Origin: Bacteroidales bacterium
GTDB taxonomy: Bacteria; Bacteroidota; Bacteroidia; Bacteroidales; Bacteroidaceae
Length of the DNA stretch: 64,000 bases
Direction of reading: 5' to 3'
Assembly: GCA_012517855.1 (NCBI GenBank)
Contig: JAAYUD010000060.1
Coordinates: 1-64,000, forward strand
The position numbers were made by a program, and so were the translations under genes. The notes beneath the pieces were generated by a model. That model worked only from the letters and a program-made list of their open reading frames with translations. It did not search any database and was not told where the DNA came from. Positions 31,769-38,506 of this stretch are shown one piece after another (positions within the stretch are counted from its first letter, which is position 1; the number at the start of each line of letters is the position of its first letter).

Positions 31769-33514
31769 ATGGAAAATCAACAATTAATTAATCAGGTAAC
31801 AGCAAAAGCCAAAAGATGGCTGGCTCCTGCCTATGATGCAGAAACACAGGCAGAAGTAAAACGTATGCTAGAGAATGAAGATAAAACAGAACTTGTAGAT
31901 TCTTTTTATAAAGATTTAGAGTTCGGTACAGGTGGTTTGCGTGGTATCATGGGAGCCGGAACAAACCGTATGAATATTTACACTGTGGGTGCTGCGACTC
32001 AAGGACTTTCGAATTATCTGAATGCTAATTTCAAAGAATTGAAACAGATTTCGGTTGTTGTGGGCCATGACTGTCGTAACAACAGTCGCAAGTTTGCTGA
32101 AATTTCTGCAAATATCTTTTCTGCAAACGGCATTAAGGTGTATCTTTTTGAAGATATGCGTCCTACTCCCGAAATATCTTTTGCTATTCGTCATTTAGGA
32201 TGTCAGAGTGGCATTATTCTGACTGCTTCTCACAATCCGAAAGAATACAATGGATATAAGGCATATTGGGATGATGGTGCTCAGGTACTGGCTCCTCATG
32301 ATAAAGGTATCATTACCGAGGTTACAAAGATAACTGATGTCTCCGGAATTAAGTTCGATGGCAATCAAAGCTTAATCCAGATTGTAGGCAAAGATATCGA
32401 TGATATTTATCTGGAGAAGATCAAATCCATATCTATAGAACCCGAAGTGATCAAACATCATAGCGACATGAAGATTGTCTACACTCCTATTCATGGCACC
32501 GGTATGATGCTCATCCCGCGTTCTCTTAAGATGTGGGGATTTGACAATGTTACTTGCGTGCCCGAGCAAATGATAAAGGATGGTAACTTCCCTACAGTCG
32601 TTTCTCCCAATCCCGAGAATGCCGAAGCGTTATCAATGGCAGTAGCTCTTGCCAAGAAGATTGATGCCGATTTAGTCATGGCGAGTGATCCTGATGCCGA
32701 TCGGGTTGGTATCGCTTGTAAAGACGACAAAGGTGAGTGGATACTCATGAATGGTAATCAAACGTGTTTGCTCTTTTTGTACTACATCATTACCCAATAT
32801 ACCAAGTTGGGCAAGATGACAGGAAAAGAATATGTTGTTAAGACGATCGTAACCACCGAGCTGATAAAAAACATTGCGCAGAAGAATCATCTTGAAATGA
32901 TGGATTGCTACACCGGTTTCAAATGGATTGCTCGCGAAGTTCGTCTCAACGAAGGCAAGAAAGCATATATCGGTGGCGGTGAAGAAAGCTATGGCTTTAT
33001 GGCCGAAGATTTTGTTCGCGACAAAGATGCCGTATCGGCCTGCTGCCTTATAGGTGAGGTTGCCGCTTGGGCAAAAGAACAAGGCAAGTCGCTTTACGAA
33101 TTGTTGCTCGATATCTATGTGGAATATGGATTTAGCAAGAATGCCACAGTCAATGTTGTTAAGCCAGGTAAGTCTGGAGCCGAAGAAATTAAGAACATGA
33201 TGAATGATTTTCGTAAAAATCCTCCTCATTCTCTTGGTGGACATAAAGTGACACTCTGGAAAGACTATAAGACGCTAAAACAAATTGATATCGCAGGACG
33301 TATTACCCGATTGGATATGCCTGAACCATCCAATGTGCTGCAATATTTCACATCAGATGGTGCTAAAGTTTCTGTTCGTCCTTCCGGTACGGAACCCAAA
33401 ATTAAATTTTACTTAGAGGTTCCGGCTCCGATGAATGTTCGTGAAGATTATCTTAAGGCCAATGAAATAGCTGATAAAGAGATCGAGAAGCTAAAGGCAT
33501 CGTTGGGAATATAG
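31769..33514 (+). CDS. Phosphohexomutase (phosphoglucomutase/phosphomannomutase)
   Basis: A 581-residue alpha-D-phosphohexomutase interconverting sugar 1- and 6-phosphates. The phosphoserine loop is TASHNPKEYNGYK (near residue 152), the metal loop DPDADRVG, the sugar-binding loop GGGEESYG, and the phosphate-binding loop RPSGTEPKIKFY near the C-terminus. The long form with FGTGGLRG near the start matches Firmicutes/Bacteroidetes phosphoglucomutases (PgcA-like) more than short GlmM. Exact sugar preference is not decidable here. Confidence 0.93.
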   Translation: MENQQLINQVTAKAKRWLAPAYDAETQAEVKRMLENEDKTELVDSFYKDLEFGTGGLRGIMGAGTNRMNIYTVGAATQGLSNYLNANFKELKQISVVVGHDCRNNSRKFAEISANIFSANGIKVYLFEDMRPTPEISFAIRHLGCQSGIILTASHNPKEYNGYKAYWDDGAQVLAPHDKGIITEVTKITDVSGIKFDGNQSLIQIVGKDIDDIYLEKIKSISIEPEVIKHHSDMKIVYTPIHGTGMMLIPRSLKMWGFDNVTCVPEQMIKDGNFPTVVSPNPENAEALSMAVALAKKIDADLVMASDPDADRVGIACKDDKGEWILMNGNQTCLLFLYYIITQYTKLGKMTGKEYVVKTIVTTELIKNIAQKNHLEMMDCYTGFKWIAREVRLNEGKKAYIGGGEESYGFMAEDFVRDKDAVSACCLIGEVAAWAKEQGKSLYELLLDIYVEYGFSKNATVNVVKPGKSGAEEIKNMMNDFRKNPPHSLGGHKVTLWKDYKTLKQIDIAGRITRLDMPEPSNVLQYFTSDGAKVSVRPSGTEPKIKFYLEVPAPMNVREDYLKANEIADKEIEKLKASLGI

Positions 33515-33639: not shown

Positions 33640-33669
33640 TTTGTTTTTCGTGTAAAAAGTGTAATTTTG
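33640..33669 (+). promoter_or_regulatory. Promoter of the Phe/Tyr operon
   Basis: TTTG (33640-33643), 18-bp spacer and TAATTTTG (33662-33669), a perfect TAnnTTTG. Transcription would start near 33676, giving a leader RNA of about 220 bases before pheA that contains the leader ORF and attenuator. The spacer is one base shorter than the usual 19-21. Confidence 0.65.
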
Positions 33670-33711
33670 CAACGTCTTTCATTAAAAGAAAAGGCAAAAA
33701 GTCGAGAATAT

Positions 33712-33798
33712 ATGAATATGATAACTTATACATTTACTAGTTTCTTTTATTACTTTTACTTTAGCAACAGAGTAAGAGCGGGACTTCGTATATGTTAA
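33712..33798 (+). CDS. Phe/Tyr-rich attenuator leader peptide
   Basis: A 28-codon ORF (ATG 33712, TAA 33796-33798) with five Phe and four Tyr codons. Residues 11-17 are FFYYFYF, seven aromatic codons in a row (33742-33762). It ends with SNRVRAGLRIC, and its last third overlaps the antiterminator arm. The position in the leader RNA of a Phe/Tyr biosynthesis operon, the aromatic run and the downstream terminator are what leader peptides of the pheA/pheST type show. It presumably acts by ribosome stalling, with no function for the peptide itself. The ORF is too short to be seen by normal gene callers. Confidence 0.88.
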   Translation: MNMITYTFTSFFYYFYFSNRVRAGLRIC

Positions 33799-33872
33799 GT
33801 AAGACATGAAAAAGATAGAAATAAAATAAGAATATCGAATCCCGCTCTTGTACAAGATGCGGGATTTTTTTT
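33774..33872 (+). promoter_or_regulatory. Transcription attenuator of the Phe/Tyr operon
   Basis: Two exclusive stems share one segment. Terminator: AATCCCGC (33838-33845) with GCGGGATT (33859-33866), an inner TCTTG/CAAGA pair, then an eight-T run to 33872. Antiterminator: AAGAGCGGGA (33774-33783, inside the leader ORF) with TCCCGCTCTT (33840-33849), 10 bp. A ribosome stalled on the aromatic codons (33742-33762) would leave 33774-33783 free to block the terminator, while one reaching the stop at 33796 would cover it and let the terminator form. Low charged tRNA-Phe or tRNA-Tyr should therefore raise expression. The structures are read by eye and no free energies were computed. Confidence 0.85.
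33838..33872 (+). terminator. Attenuator terminator hairpin
   Basis: An 8-bp outer stem AATCCCGC/GCGGGATT with an inner TCTTG-TA-CAAGA helix and one bulged T, followed by TTTTTTTT (33865-33872). It ends 23 bases before the pheA start codon. Confidence 0.88.
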
Positions 33873-33895
33873 ATCATGCAAGTAGAATAAGGAAA

Positions 33896-34741
33896 ATGAA
33901 GAAAGTAGCTATACAAGGAGGTCTAGGGTCGTTTCATGATATTGCGGCTCACCAGTATTTTGAAGGAAGCGATATTCAGTTGGAATGTTGCATTCAGTTC
34001 GAGGATATTTTCAAGACGATGAGTCACGATACTGACGTCTTTGGCATGCTCGCTATCGAGAATACCATTGCCGGAAGTCTTTTGCACAACAATGAGTTGC
34101 TTCGGCTGAGTGGAACGCAAATTATCGGAGAACATAAGCTTCGCATTTCGCATTGCTTTGTTTGTCTGCCCGACGACGACTGGACTACCATTACCGAAGT
34201 CAATTCGCATCCTATTGCTCTGATGCAGTGTCGCGAATTTTTGAGCCATCACCCGCAGTACAAAGTAGTAGAGTGCGAAGACACGGCTATGAGTGCCCAG
34301 AATATTATGGAGAACAACCTTCATGGTCACGCTGCTATTTGTTCCGAGGCAGCAGCCAATCTATTTGGCATGAAGATTCTTTCTAAGGGCATCGAGACCA
34401 ATAAGCACAACTTCACCCGCTTCTTGGTTGTTGCCAATCCGTCATTGGTAGACAAAATCCATCCGGATATGGCTTCGACTAATAAATCGAGCATGGTTTT
34501 CACTTTATCTCATACCGAAGGCAGTCTTTCGCAAGTGCTTTCCATCTTTTCTTTTTATCGAATCAATTTAACCAAAATACAGTCTTTGCCCATCATCGGG
34601 CACGAATGGGAATATCAGTTTTATGTCGACATTGTTTTCGACGATTATACTCGTTACAAGCAGTCGGTAGCCGCTGTTGTTCCATTGACCAAACAATTCA
34701 AAATATTAGGCGAATATGCAGAAGGAAAACAAAGTTTATAA
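33896..34741 (+). CDS. pheA: Prephenate dehydratase
   Basis: Converts prephenate to phenylpyruvate, the committed step to phenylalanine. The 281-residue protein has the dehydratase domain (FHDIAAHQYF, AIENTIAGSL, and NFTRFLVV with the essential TRF) and a C-terminal ACT domain (EGSLSQVLSIFSFYRINLTKIQSLP), where phenylalanine feedback usually acts. There is no chorismate mutase domain; that activity is fused to the DAHP synthase two genes on. The ATG at 33896 is chosen because an upstream in-frame start would lie inside the attenuator hairpin. Its end overlaps the aminotransferase gene by 26 bases. Confidence 0.95.
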   Translation: MKKVAIQGGLGSFHDIAAHQYFEGSDIQLECCIQFEDIFKTMSHDTDVFGMLAIENTIAGSLLHNNELLRLSGTQIIGEHKLRISHCFVCLPDDDWTTITEVNSHPIALMQCREFLSHHPQYKVVECEDTAMSAQNIMENNLHGHAAICSEAAANLFGMKILSKGIETNKHNFTRFLVVANPSLVDKIHPDMASTNKSSMVFTLSHTEGSLSQVLSIFSFYRINLTKIQSLPIIGHEWEYQFYVDIVFDDYTRYKQSVAAVVPLTKQFKILGEYAEGKQSL

Positions 34742-35900
34742 TATTCAGCCGGCAGACCGATTGTCTGAGGTACGCGAATATTATTTCTCGGTGAAACTCA
34801 AAGAAGTAGCCCGGATGAATGCCGAAGGCAAAGATGTGATTAGTCTGGCGATTGGCAGTCCCGATATGCCTCCCAGCGACGCAACGATAAAGCAATTGTG
34901 CGAGAGTGCTCACAATCCAGACGGACACGGTTATCAGCCTTATGTCGGAATACCCGAACTGAGAGAGGCTTTTGCCCGTTGGTATCAACGTTGGTATGGC
35001 GTCGCACTCGATCCGAATACCGAAATACAACCGCTCATAGGCTCCAAAGAAGGTATTCTGCATGTCACGTTGGCTTTTGTCAATCCCGGCGATCAAGTAT
35101 TGGTTCCCAATCCTGGTTATCCTACTTATACTTCTCTGAGCAAACTGCTTGGCGCCGAGATCGTCAGTTACAATCTGCGAGAAGAAAATGCTTGGATGCC
35201 CGATTTCGATGAATTGGAAAGAATGGATACTTCGCGTGTCAAACTGATGTGGGTCAATTATCCCAATATGCCTACAGGAGCCAATGCCACTCCCCTACTC
35301 TATGAACGATTGGTAGATTTTGCACGCCGCAAGAACATTGTTATCGTCAACGACAATCCCTATAGTTTTATCTTAAACGACAAACCTATCAGTATTCTGG
35401 CTGTTCCGGGAGCCAAAGATTGTTGCATCGAATTCAATTCGATGAGCAAAAGTCACAATATGCCCGGATGGCGTGTAGCTATGTTGGCCTCCAATGCTCA
35501 GTTTGTGCAGTGGGTGCTCAAGGTCAAGAGCAATATAGACAGTGGCATGTTTCGTGCCGTTCAGCTTGCCGCAGCTACGGCACTTGCGGCCGATACCGAT
35601 TGGTACGAAGGCAATAACGCCAACTATCGTAAGCGTCGCTCGCTAGCCGCAGAGATAATGAACGCACTGCATTGCACTTACGACGAAAACCAGGTGGGCA
35701 TGTTCCTTTGGGGCAAGATCCCTGCCAGTTATCAGAAGGTAGAAGACCTCACGGAAAAAGTGCTTCAGCAGGCTCGCGTATTTATTACGCCGGGATTCAT
35801 CTTCGGAAGCAATGGCGAACGCTATATCCGTATTTCTCTTTGCTGCAAAGACGATAAGTTGGCCGAGGCGTTACGGCGTATCAAAGCGCTTGGACTCTGA
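34716..35900 (+). CDS. Class I/II aminotransferase, aromatic pathway
   Basis: A 394-residue PLP-dependent fold-type I aminotransferase. The PLP lysine lies in SMSKSHNMPGWRVAM near residue 244; NYPNMPTGA and VNDNPYSF supply the other cofactor contacts, and RISLCC near the end carries the carboxylate-binding arginine. Sequence alone resembles aspartate or LL-diaminopimelate aminotransferases. Its position between pheA and the DAHP synthase gene (26-base overlap with pheA) suggests it transaminates phenylpyruvate and 4-hydroxyphenylpyruvate, or prephenate. Confidence 0.88.
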   Translation: MQKENKVYNIQPADRLSEVREYYFSVKLKEVARMNAEGKDVISLAIGSPDMPPSDATIKQLCESAHNPDGHGYQPYVGIPELREAFARWYQRWYGVALDPNTEIQPLIGSKEGILHVTLAFVNPGDQVLVPNPGYPTYTSLSKLLGAEIVSYNLREENAWMPDFDELERMDTSRVKLMWVNYPNMPTGANATPLLYERLVDFARRKNIVIVNDNPYSFILNDKPISILAVPGAKDCCIEFNSMSKSHNMPGWRVAMLASNAQFVQWVLKVKSNIDSGMFRAVQLAAATALAADTDWYEGNNANYRKRRSLAAEIMNALHCTYDENQVGMFLWGKIPASYQKVEDLTEKVLQQARVFITPGFIFGSNGERYIRISLCCKDDKLAEALRRIKALGL

Positions 35901-35981: not shown

Positions 35982-37043
35982 ATGGAATTAGAACCAATTA
36001 TTCTTCCCGGGGTACCTCAGCAACGCCCTTTAGTAATTGCCGGCCCCTGTAGCGCAGAGACCGAAGAACAAGTCATGAATACAGCTCGCGATCTCTCTGC
36101 CAAAGGCATTAAGATATTGCGTGCCGGTATCTGGAAACCGCGCACCAAGCCCGGCGGTTTCGAAGGTGTAGGCACCGAAGGATTGCAGTGGCTCAAGAAA
36201 GCCAAAGCCGAATATGGCATGTACACCGCTACCGAGGTGGCCACTGGCAAGCACGTTTTCGAAGCGTTGAAGGCGGGTATTGATATTTTGTGGATTGGCG
36301 CCCGTACATCTGCCAATCCCTTTGCCGTGCAAGAGATTGCCGACGCATTGAAAGGCGTTGATATTCCGGTATACATTAAGAATCCGGTCAATCCCGATCT
36401 CGAATTGTGGATCGGTGCATTGCAGCGTGTCTACAATGCGGGCATCAAACGTTTGGGAGCTATCCATCGCGGATTCAGTACTTACGATAAGACCATCTAT
36501 CGCAACACGCCTCAATGGCAGGTACCTATCGAACTACGCCGACGCATTCCGGGACTGCCTATTCTTTGCGACCCCAGCCATATAGGTGGTAAACGCGAAC
36601 TTATCGCACCGATTTGCCAACAGGCTATGGATTTGAATTTCGACGGACTGATTATCGAATCGCATTGCGACCCCGATAAAGCGTGGAGCGATGCCAAACA
36701 GCAGGTAACACCCGAGGTGCTCGATTATATTATCAATATGCTCGTCATTCGAAAAGAAACACAGTCTACCGAGAACCTTACCGAATTGCGTCGCCAGATA
36801 GATGAGTGCGACGATAGTATCATCGAGATATTGGCCAAACGAATGCGTATATGCCGCGAGATAGGTACTTACAAAAAAGAACACGACATTACCGTATTGC
36901 AAACGGCCCGTTACCGCGAAATCATCGAAAAACGTGGTTTGCAGGGTGCACAATGTTGCATGGATGCGAAGTTTGTAGAAGAGGTGTTCGAAGCGATTCA
37001 TGCCGAATCGGTTCGCGAACAAATGGAAATAATCAATAAATAG
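35982..37043 (+). CDS. DAHP synthase fused to chorismate mutase
   Basis: A 353-residue bifunctional enzyme. Residues 1 to about 260 are a type I-beta (KDO8P-synthase-like) DAHP synthase, with VIAGPCSAET, GIWKPRTKPGGFEG and CDPSHIGG. Residues about 265-353 are an AroQ-type chorismate mutase (LRRQIDECDDSIIEILAKRM, with REIGTYKK). It thus makes the first shikimate-pathway intermediate and also converts chorismate to prephenate, the substrate of its operon partners. In characterised fusions the mutase domain confers feedback inhibition of the synthase. Located 81 bases after the aminotransferase. Confidence 0.95.
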   Translation: MELEPIILPGVPQQRPLVIAGPCSAETEEQVMNTARDLSAKGIKILRAGIWKPRTKPGGFEGVGTEGLQWLKKAKAEYGMYTATEVATGKHVFEALKAGIDILWIGARTSANPFAVQEIADALKGVDIPVYIKNPVNPDLELWIGALQRVYNAGIKRLGAIHRGFSTYDKTIYRNTPQWQVPIELRRRIPGLPILCDPSHIGGKRELIAPICQQAMDLNFDGLIIESHCDPDKAWSDAKQQVTPEVLDYIINMLVIRKETQSTENLTELRRQIDECDDSIIEILAKRMRICREIGTYKKEHDITVLQTARYREIIEKRGLQGAQCCMDAKFVEEVFEAIHAESVREQMEIINK

Positions 37044-37052
37044 AATATAACA

Positions 37053-37832
37053 ATGAAAATATTGATATTGGGAGCCGGAAAGATGGGATCGTTTTTTAAC
37101 GATGTGTTGAGCTTTGATCACGAAACGGCTGTCTACGACACCAATCCCCAACAACTGCGCTTCGTATACAATACTTACCGCTTCACCACACTCGACGAAA
37201 TCAAAGAGTTTCAGCCCGAGCTTCTCATCAATGCCGTAACGGTGAAATATACGCTGCAAGCCTTTCGCGACGTATTGCCCTACCTGCCCAAAGATTGTAT
37301 CATCAGCGATATTGCTTCGGTCAAAAGCGGACTGAAACGCTTCTATAAAGAAAGCGGTTTCCGTTTTGTGTCTACTCACCCTATGTTTGGCCCCACGTTC
37401 GCTTCGCTCAACAATCTAGGCACGGAGAATGCCATTGTTATAAGCGAGAGCGACCATCTGGGCAAGATTTTCTTTAAAGATCTGTACCAGCAGCTCAATC
37501 TCAATATATTCGAATACTCTTTCGAACAGCACGATGAGACGGTAGCTTATTCGCTTTCTATTCCGTTTGTATCCACATTCGTCTTTTCGGCGGTAATGCA
37601 GCATCAAGATGCACCTGGCACGACATTCAAAAAGCACATGGCTATAGCCAAAGGACTATTGAGCGAAGACGATTATCTGTTGCAAGAAATTCTTTTCAAT
37701 CCCCGTACTCCGGTGCAGGTCGAAAAGATTCGTACCGAGCTGAAGATACTGCTCGACATCATCACTCGCAAAGATCCCGAGGGAATGAAACAATACTTAA
37801 AAAAGATACGCACCAATATCAAAGAGCATTAA
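37053..37832 (+). CDS. tyrA: Prephenate dehydrogenase
   Basis: A 259-residue TyrA-type protein: Rossmann start MKILILGAGKMGSFF, then DIASVKSG (NAD-domain) and the catalytic-histidine region STHPMFGPTF, then the helical dimerisation domain. It oxidatively decarboxylates prephenate to 4-hydroxyphenylpyruvate for tyrosine. Shorter than enteric TyrA because the chorismate mutase is on the preceding gene, 9 bases upstream. Last gene of the attenuated operon. Confidence 0.9.
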   Translation: MKILILGAGKMGSFFNDVLSFDHETAVYDTNPQQLRFVYNTYRFTTLDEIKEFQPELLINAVTVKYTLQAFRDVLPYLPKDCIISDIASVKSGLKRFYKESGFRFVSTHPMFGPTFASLNNLGTENAIVISESDHLGKIFFKDLYQQLNLNIFEYSFEQHDETVAYSLSIPFVSTFVFSAVMQHQDAPGTTFKKHMAIAKGLLSEDDYLLQEILFNPRTPVQVEKIRTELKILLDIITRKDPEGMKQYLKKIRTNIKEH

Positions 37833-37893: not shown

Positions 37894-38442
37894 ATGAAAA
37901 AAGTATATGTACTTTTGGCTCAAGGCTTTGAAACAGTCGAAGCTCTGGCACAAGTAGATGTTTGCCGTCGTTGCAAATTGGAGGTTGCGACGGTATCTGT
38001 TGATAACAATTATACTGTCGTATCTTCTCATGGAGTTGCAGTCACAGCCGATCAGCTTATTCGAGATACCAACTTCGATGATGGCGATGCTCTGGTGTTG
38101 CCCGGTGGCTTTCCCGGTTATATGAACTTGGCAAACTCCAAAGAGGTAGGCGAAGCTGTGAAGCAGTACTATCAATCGGGCAAATATGTTGCCGCTATAT
38201 GTGGCGCTCCTTATGTATTGGCGGCAAATGGCATAGCTAGGGACCGTCGTGTCACCTACCATTTCAGTATCAAAGACAAAATGGAAGGCTACACATATAC
38301 GGGCGATAAAGCTATTGTCGACGGCAATCTTATTACCGGCCGTGGGGCAGGTTGTTCGTTCGATTTTGGTATTGCTCTCATGAATTTACTTACAGACGAA
38401 GAGACTGTAGCACATCTTAAAAAAGGCTTGGAGTGGTCTTAA
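37894..38442 (+). CDS. DJ-1/PfpI (YajL-like) protein
   Basis: A 182-residue DJ-1 superfamily protein. VYVLLAQGFETVEALAQVDVC contains the conserved Glu (E16 in GFETVE), and AAICGAPYVLA contains the nucleophilic cysteine at the elbow, as in YajL and human DJ-1. Members are linked to redox stress and glyoxal or methylglyoxal damage, but their true activity is debated. A separate -7 box suggests its own promoter. Confidence 0.92.
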   Translation: MKKVYVLLAQGFETVEALAQVDVCRRCKLEVATVSVDNNYTVVSSHGVAVTADQLIRDTNFDDGDALVLPGGFPGYMNLANSKEVGEAVKQYYQSGKYVAAICGAPYVLAANGIARDRRVTYHFSIKDKMEGYTYTGDKAIVDGNLITGRGAGCSFDFGIALMNLLTDEETVAHLKKGLEWS

Positions 38443-38506
38443 AAGAGGCCACTTCATTACTCTTAGATAAAGACTCTTTATCCTCTGCATGCAAGATAAA
38501 GGGCCT

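Follow-up and report, generated by a model that had tools for sequence, protein, structure and literature searches.

Classical attenuation is a textbook mechanism which has been studied best in Proteobacteria. For Bacteroides thetaiotaomicron, a putative attenuator preceding the operon pheA > hisHb > aroA-aroQ > tyrA was listed among Merino's predictions (PMC1173090, 2005, Table 7). The main text of a later study describes a transcribed, structured 5' element of pheA without an Rfam match in Flavobacterium psychrophilum, together with strong indications that leader-peptide attenuation acts on amino-acid operons (PMC9723704, 2021), and short ORFs reminiscent of leader peptides are mentioned for B. 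thetaiotaomicron in PMC7366714 (2020). No description of a Phe/Tyr leader in Bacteroides, or of the spread of the Phe/Tyr run, was found in the open-access literature; the bacteria-wide attenuation survey of Lopatovskaya et al. (2010), as cited in PMC10272879, may list one.

The locus described here lies within a window of 64,000 nt, this being the whole stretch of Bacteroidales DNA that was analysed. Its leader region has the following features:

33640 to 33669, forward strand: promoter of the Bacteroidota type, TTTG-N18-TAATTTTG (TTTG at 33640-33643, an 18 nt spacer, then TAATTTTG at 33662-33669), read from the sequence, the element being conserved upstream of the leaders of relatives
33712 to 33798, forward strand: leader peptide ORF of 28 codons, MNMITYTFTSFFYYFYFSNRVRAGLRIC, with its ATG at 33712 and its stop at 33796-33798, read from the sequence and kept in relatives
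33742 to 33762, forward strand: regulatory codon run Phe-Phe-Tyr-Tyr-Phe-Tyr-Phe (FFYYFYF), from the sequence and relatives
33724 to 33762, forward strand: region 1, the 5' arm of the 1:2 hairpin, formed by leader codons including the aromatic run (inner stem 33753-33762), from folds and a synonymous-codon permutation test
33774 to 33783, forward strand: region 2, the 5' arm of the antiterminator and part of the 3' arm of the 1:2 hairpin, from complementarity and compensatory changes
33840 to 33849, forward strand: region 3, the 3' arm of the antiterminator and 5' arm of the terminator, from complementarity and compensatory changes
33837 to 33872, forward strand: intrinsic terminator (regions 3:4, stem 33837-33867) with its U tract, from folds and compensatory changes

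The genes following the leader were identified by Pfam:

33896 to 34741, forward strand: pheA, prephenate dehydratase, putatively the first gene controlled (PF00800)
34716 to 35900, forward strand: class I/II aminotransferase (PF00155)
35982 to 37043, forward strand: DAHP synthase/chorismate mutase fusion (PF00793 and PF01817)
37053 to 37832, forward strand: tyrA, prephenate dehydrogenase (PF02153)

The initial annotation, which was made from the sequence alone, had named this promoter, the 28-codon ORF with its FFYYFYF run, a terminator (placed at 33838-33872), the pairing of regions 2 and 3 and the four-gene operon, and all of these were borne out. The end of pheA is overlapped by 26 nt by the aminotransferase ORF (34716-34741), which suggests translational coupling. 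A DJ-1 family gene on the same strand downstream of tyrA (37894-38456), with a terminator-like site at 38429-38456, may share a transcript with the operon.

The short ORF carries a codon run for the end products of the operon, and the intrinsic terminator sits between this ORF and pheA. Region 2 (AAGAGCGGGA), inside the ORF, is the exact 10-bp reverse complement of region 3 (TCCCGCTCTT). The antiterminator uses the 5' arm of the terminator, and the two are mutually exclusive. The terminator was missed by a simple terminator scan of the window owing to its bulged stem, which was seen in the folds. On folding, the leader RNA was more stable than shuffled sequence (z -2.9, 2 of 200 shuffles). Its minimum-energy fold shows a long 1:2 hairpin, with leader codons, among them those of the aromatic run, in the 5' arm and region 2 within the 3' arm; this hairpin is absent from the description in the initial annotation. 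As modelled, it would free region 2 only if a ribosome stalls on the control codons.

Comparison was made with the regions upstream of pheA in 60 relatives from the family, 60 genomes from other families of the order and 40 from the class and phylum. The genome itself belongs to a genus with no other member among those compared, and its PheA shares no more than 74% identity with the Bacteroides and Mediterranea proteins. An aromatic-run leader ORF was present before pheA in 59 of the 60 family relatives and in 54 of 59 readable regions from the other families, with most relatives having FYFYF or a close variant where the window has FFYYFYF. Carriers include Bacteroides fragilis, B. xylanisolvens, B. 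cellulosilyticus, Phocaeicola sartorii and Mediterranea massiliensis. At least six Phe/Tyr per eight codons of a short ATG ORF were found in 110 of the 119 family and order regions, compared with 0.08% (about 1 in 1,200) of dinucleotide shuffles and 2 of 119 regions on the opposite strand. The leader is far beyond chance. At class level, 16 of 22 genomes reached at least six aromatics per eight codons and 20 of 22 at least five, with only 3 of 18 genomes from the remainder of the phylum reaching at least six. Of 114 leaders, 102 had the promoter element TANNTTTG in the 120 nt preceding their ATG, at a median distance of 35 nt, compared with 13 of 114 on the opposite strand. Judged from these sequences, the same predicted switch is conserved to class level within the Bacteroidota.

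Two variations were observed among the relatives. Trp codons were present in 17 of 54 pheA leaders from other families, compared with 3 of 59 in the window's own family, and often lay within or adjoining the Phe/Tyr run (e.g., L170, L193, L181, and L197); the DAHP synthase of the operon feeds Trp too. Furthermore, two aromatic ORFs were found in ten of approximately 160 scanned pheA upstream regions. Loci L146, L148, L151, L143 (a by-eye addition), L191, L198 and others have two complete aromatic leader-terminator units in tandem before pheA, and the units differ in the sequence of regions 2 and 3, e.g., ACGGG/CCCGT followed by GGTGGGAT/ATCCCACC.

Alignment of relatives, the check proposed with the initial annotation, showed that the aromatic codons are conserved and that each of the two stems has compensatory changes. 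Covariation was counted on 60 aligned leaders and on a wider set of 44 leaders across the order, with shuffle controls that carry no correction for relatedness. In the 60 leaders, 89.3% of antiterminator (2:3) cells were paired and two-sided changes occurred in 7 of 9 pairs (38 two-sided cells against 14.8 when shuffled, 0 of 500), and for the terminator (3:4) in 9 of 12 pairs (56 cells against 20.9 shuffled). The corresponding values in the 44 leaders were 8 of 8 pairs for the antiterminator (40 cells against 15.2) and 9 of 9 pairs for the terminator. When the arms were slid as a control, paired cells fell from about 90% to 29–59%. In four leaders (L049, L147, L149, and L158), Watson-Crick pairs join region 2 (GCAGG or ACAGG) to region 3 (CCUGC or CCUGU): where region 3 has changed from C to U, region 2 has changed from G to A, while region 4 retains its G and forms a G.U pair. 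This pattern indicates that the antiterminator is selected independently of the terminator. Region 2 also pairs with leader codons in 93 of 100 leaders, and the 1:2 hairpin was more stable than synonymous-codon permutations in 87 of 100 (negative z; Wilcoxon p about 1e-15, uncorrected for relatedness).

These observations bear on the notion that the terminator simply belongs to the end of an upstream phosphoglucomutase-like gene, with the ORF being noise. Such a gene does lie on the same strand and ends at 33514. However, a promoter stands between that gene and the leader, here as in the 102 of 114 leaders noted above, the antiterminator has compensatory changes of its own, and pheA begins approximately 24 nt past the U tract, which ends near 33872. 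This explanation is scarcely credible.

The spacing of the parts is likewise restricted. In 90 of 104 leaders, region 2 starts 11–17 nt past the first base of the final aromatic codon, close to the expected leading edge of a ribosome stalled on that codon. The parts, both alternative helices with their conservation and covariation, and this spacing are demonstrated by sequence and comparison. Taken on their own, a terminator and antiterminator would suit any sensor, and attenuation could be real with a protein or small molecule binding the leader RNA and the aromatic ORF being incidental. This is very unlikely, given that the aromatic run is kept in more than 110 leaders despite variable surroundings, that the distance from the end of the run to region 2 is narrow, and that no Rfam riboswitch or T-box family matched the pheA leader up to an E value of 10. 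On the same sequence evidence, the element is very probably a ribosome-mediated (classical) transcription attenuator which senses the charging of tRNA-Phe and tRNA-Tyr.

The effect of a stalled ribosome was modelled by folding the RNA left free with a ribosome at each leader codon, using a footprint of 12 nt beyond the A-site codon, a general value for bacterial ribosomes. For the window, the antiterminator came out lowest in energy only with the ribosome stalled on one of the final six codons of the run (F Y Y F Y F); the terminator won for earlier stalls, one codon past the run, beyond it and at the stop. The model agrees in this with the initial annotation, by which a stall on the aromatic run frees the antiterminator arm. 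Across 100 leaders folded before region 4 is made, the antiterminator was predicted in 97–99% for stalls from eight codons before the last aromatic codon up to that codon, in 20% for a stall two codons past it and in 0% at the stop. Once region 4 was included, about three quarters of the 100 leaders had the terminator as their minimum-energy state even with a stalled ribosome. The terminator being favoured at equilibrium in most relatives, the mechanism there would rest on the order of folding (kinetics), the window being an exception.

It is conceivable, though unlikely, that the switch senses mainly one amino acid, Phe or Tyr, with the other codons kept since the 1:2 hairpin constrains the run (TTTTACTTTTACTTT) as RNA. 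The DNA of the run is very constant within the window's own family and the aromatic codons themselves form the 5' arm of that hairpin, as this would predict. On the other hand, Phe and Tyr both recur in families with different DNA and stems, stalls on either Phe or Tyr codons in the window gave the same antiterminator, and the operon makes both amino acids. A sensor of both charged tRNAs is the preferred reading.

The position of the stop codon relative to the start of region 2 varies among relatives, between 8 nt ahead of it and 44 nt past it. In a group of leaders (e.g., L008, L010, and L017), UAA lies directly before region 2 and a terminating ribosome is predicted to mask region 2, as in E. 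coli trpL. In the window and other leaders, the ORF passes through region 2 and the stop codon lies beyond it. Masking of region 2 by a ribosome at the stop codon, as proposed in the initial annotation, is part of the story, but does not hold as a general rule with so variable a stop. As the stop position is not conserved, many relatives must rely on the ribosome moving on or being released, after which regions 1 and 2 pair, and ribosome passage with re-formation of the 1:2 hairpin explains both arrangements. Translational coupling or reinitiation at pheA, instead of termination, has to be considered as the main action of the leader, as reinitiation has been proposed for Bacteroidetes leader genes (PMC4833913). 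In most relatives, however, the stop lies about 60–120 nt before pheA with the intrinsic terminator in between, as against a Bacteroidetes peak at 11–14 nt in that paper, making such an action highly improbable.

A mechanism for the favoured attenuator can be proposed. RNA polymerase would start at the adjoining upstream promoter, and the 1:2 hairpin would form behind it and probably hold the polymerase for the ribosome. With both tRNAs charged, the ribosome would cross the aromatic codons and region 2 and then leave or sit near the stop codon; with region 2 covered or re-paired with region 1, region 3 would be free to form the 3:4 terminator, and transcription would stop before pheA. When Phe or Tyr is short, the ribosome would stall on the run with its footprint over region 1, ending just before region 2. 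Region 2 could then pair with region 3 as the latter emerges, no terminator would form, and pheA, the aminotransferase, the DAHP synthase/chorismate mutase and tyrA would be transcribed. Translation of the leader, local coupling of transcription with translation and the direction of the regulatory response are what we infer here.

Further leaders were observed in the same genome. A His leader (MRFNTIHHHHHILTNQFGRRR, with HHHHH) lies on the reverse strand at 501-566 of L255, has a downstream terminator and precedes hisG. An Ile/Val/Leu leader (LLHIIIIRVVV, ending LAVLLHIIIIRVVVKTTMR) at about 1270-1338 of L256 is accompanied by a strong terminator and precedes ilvD. A Trp leader (MNRSVVNTYWWWRLLQLRKS, with WWW) on the reverse strand of L258 precedes trp genes and corresponds to Rfam Bacteroid-trp, RF01692. 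With these three leaders present, classical attenuation looks like an ordinary mode of control in this genome and not an isolated oddity, and the view in the initial annotation that it would be unusual in Bacteroidales has to be softened for the phylum. The 1.6 kb read upstream of the homoserine dehydrogenase gene showed no evident Thr leader. A covariance model built from 60 leaders gave only the pheA locus as a clear match in the genome (100.4 bits, the next being 25.2 bits). Two of the next-best places (L259 and L260) had no aromatic leader on reading, so no second Phe/Tyr element is claimed.

Translation initiation in the Bacteroidota proceeds without a strong Shine-Dalgarno. The balance of the evidence tilts slightly towards a broader reading, namely that this is an ancient, class-wide aromatic attenuator acting as an OR-type sensor of the charging of Phe, Tyr and, in some families, Trp tRNA, with two complete switches in series in some families, and dependent on tight transcription-translation coupling in a phylum without Shine-Dalgarno-led initiation. 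The locus and its relatives would place classical attenuation ahead of the Phe/Tyr operon across a major class of gut and environmental bacteria, where Rfam has no annotation for it. Since attenuation needs a ribosome close behind RNA polymerase, the conservation of this geometry offers a direct way of testing transcription-translation coupling in Bacteroidota, and the leaders could be used in Bacteroides as ready-made sensors of aromatic amino-acid charging.

The Rfam scan of the leader returned sub-threshold matches only and the element is absent from Rfam. The Phe_leader family (RF01859) scored 21.7 bits (E 0.95), below its gathering threshold of 55 bits, and Bacteroid-trp gave no match at the pheA leader up to an E value of 10, although it is found elsewhere in the genome. 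Like the enterobacterial pheL leader that RF01859 represents, the present element has an aromatic-rich predicted peptide (Phe-rich in pheL) before pheA, 1:2, 2:3 and 3:4 alternatives and an intrinsic terminator; however, its sequence differs, its codons are mixed Phe and Tyr, and its operon makes both amino acids. Bacteroid-trp (RF01692; PMC2864571) is similarly a cis-regulatory leader of a Bacteroidetes amino-acid operon, but has Trp codons and precedes the trp operon. The B. thetaiotaomicron attenuator of PMC1173090 shares the operon, phylum and place, and is listed without leader peptide, codon run or mechanism. The F. psychrophilum element is likewise a structured pheA leader, but concerns Flavobacteriaceae only, and the main text of PMC9723704 gives no codon or alternative-stem detail. 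Classical ribosome-mediated attenuation is already known, as are the attenuator prediction and the structured pheA element of PMC1173090 and PMC9723704, respectively. New here are the 1:2 hairpin, the unconserved stop position, the class-level spread, the tandem copies in some families, and the finding of leaders for His, Ile/Val/Leu and Trp alongside this one in a single genome.
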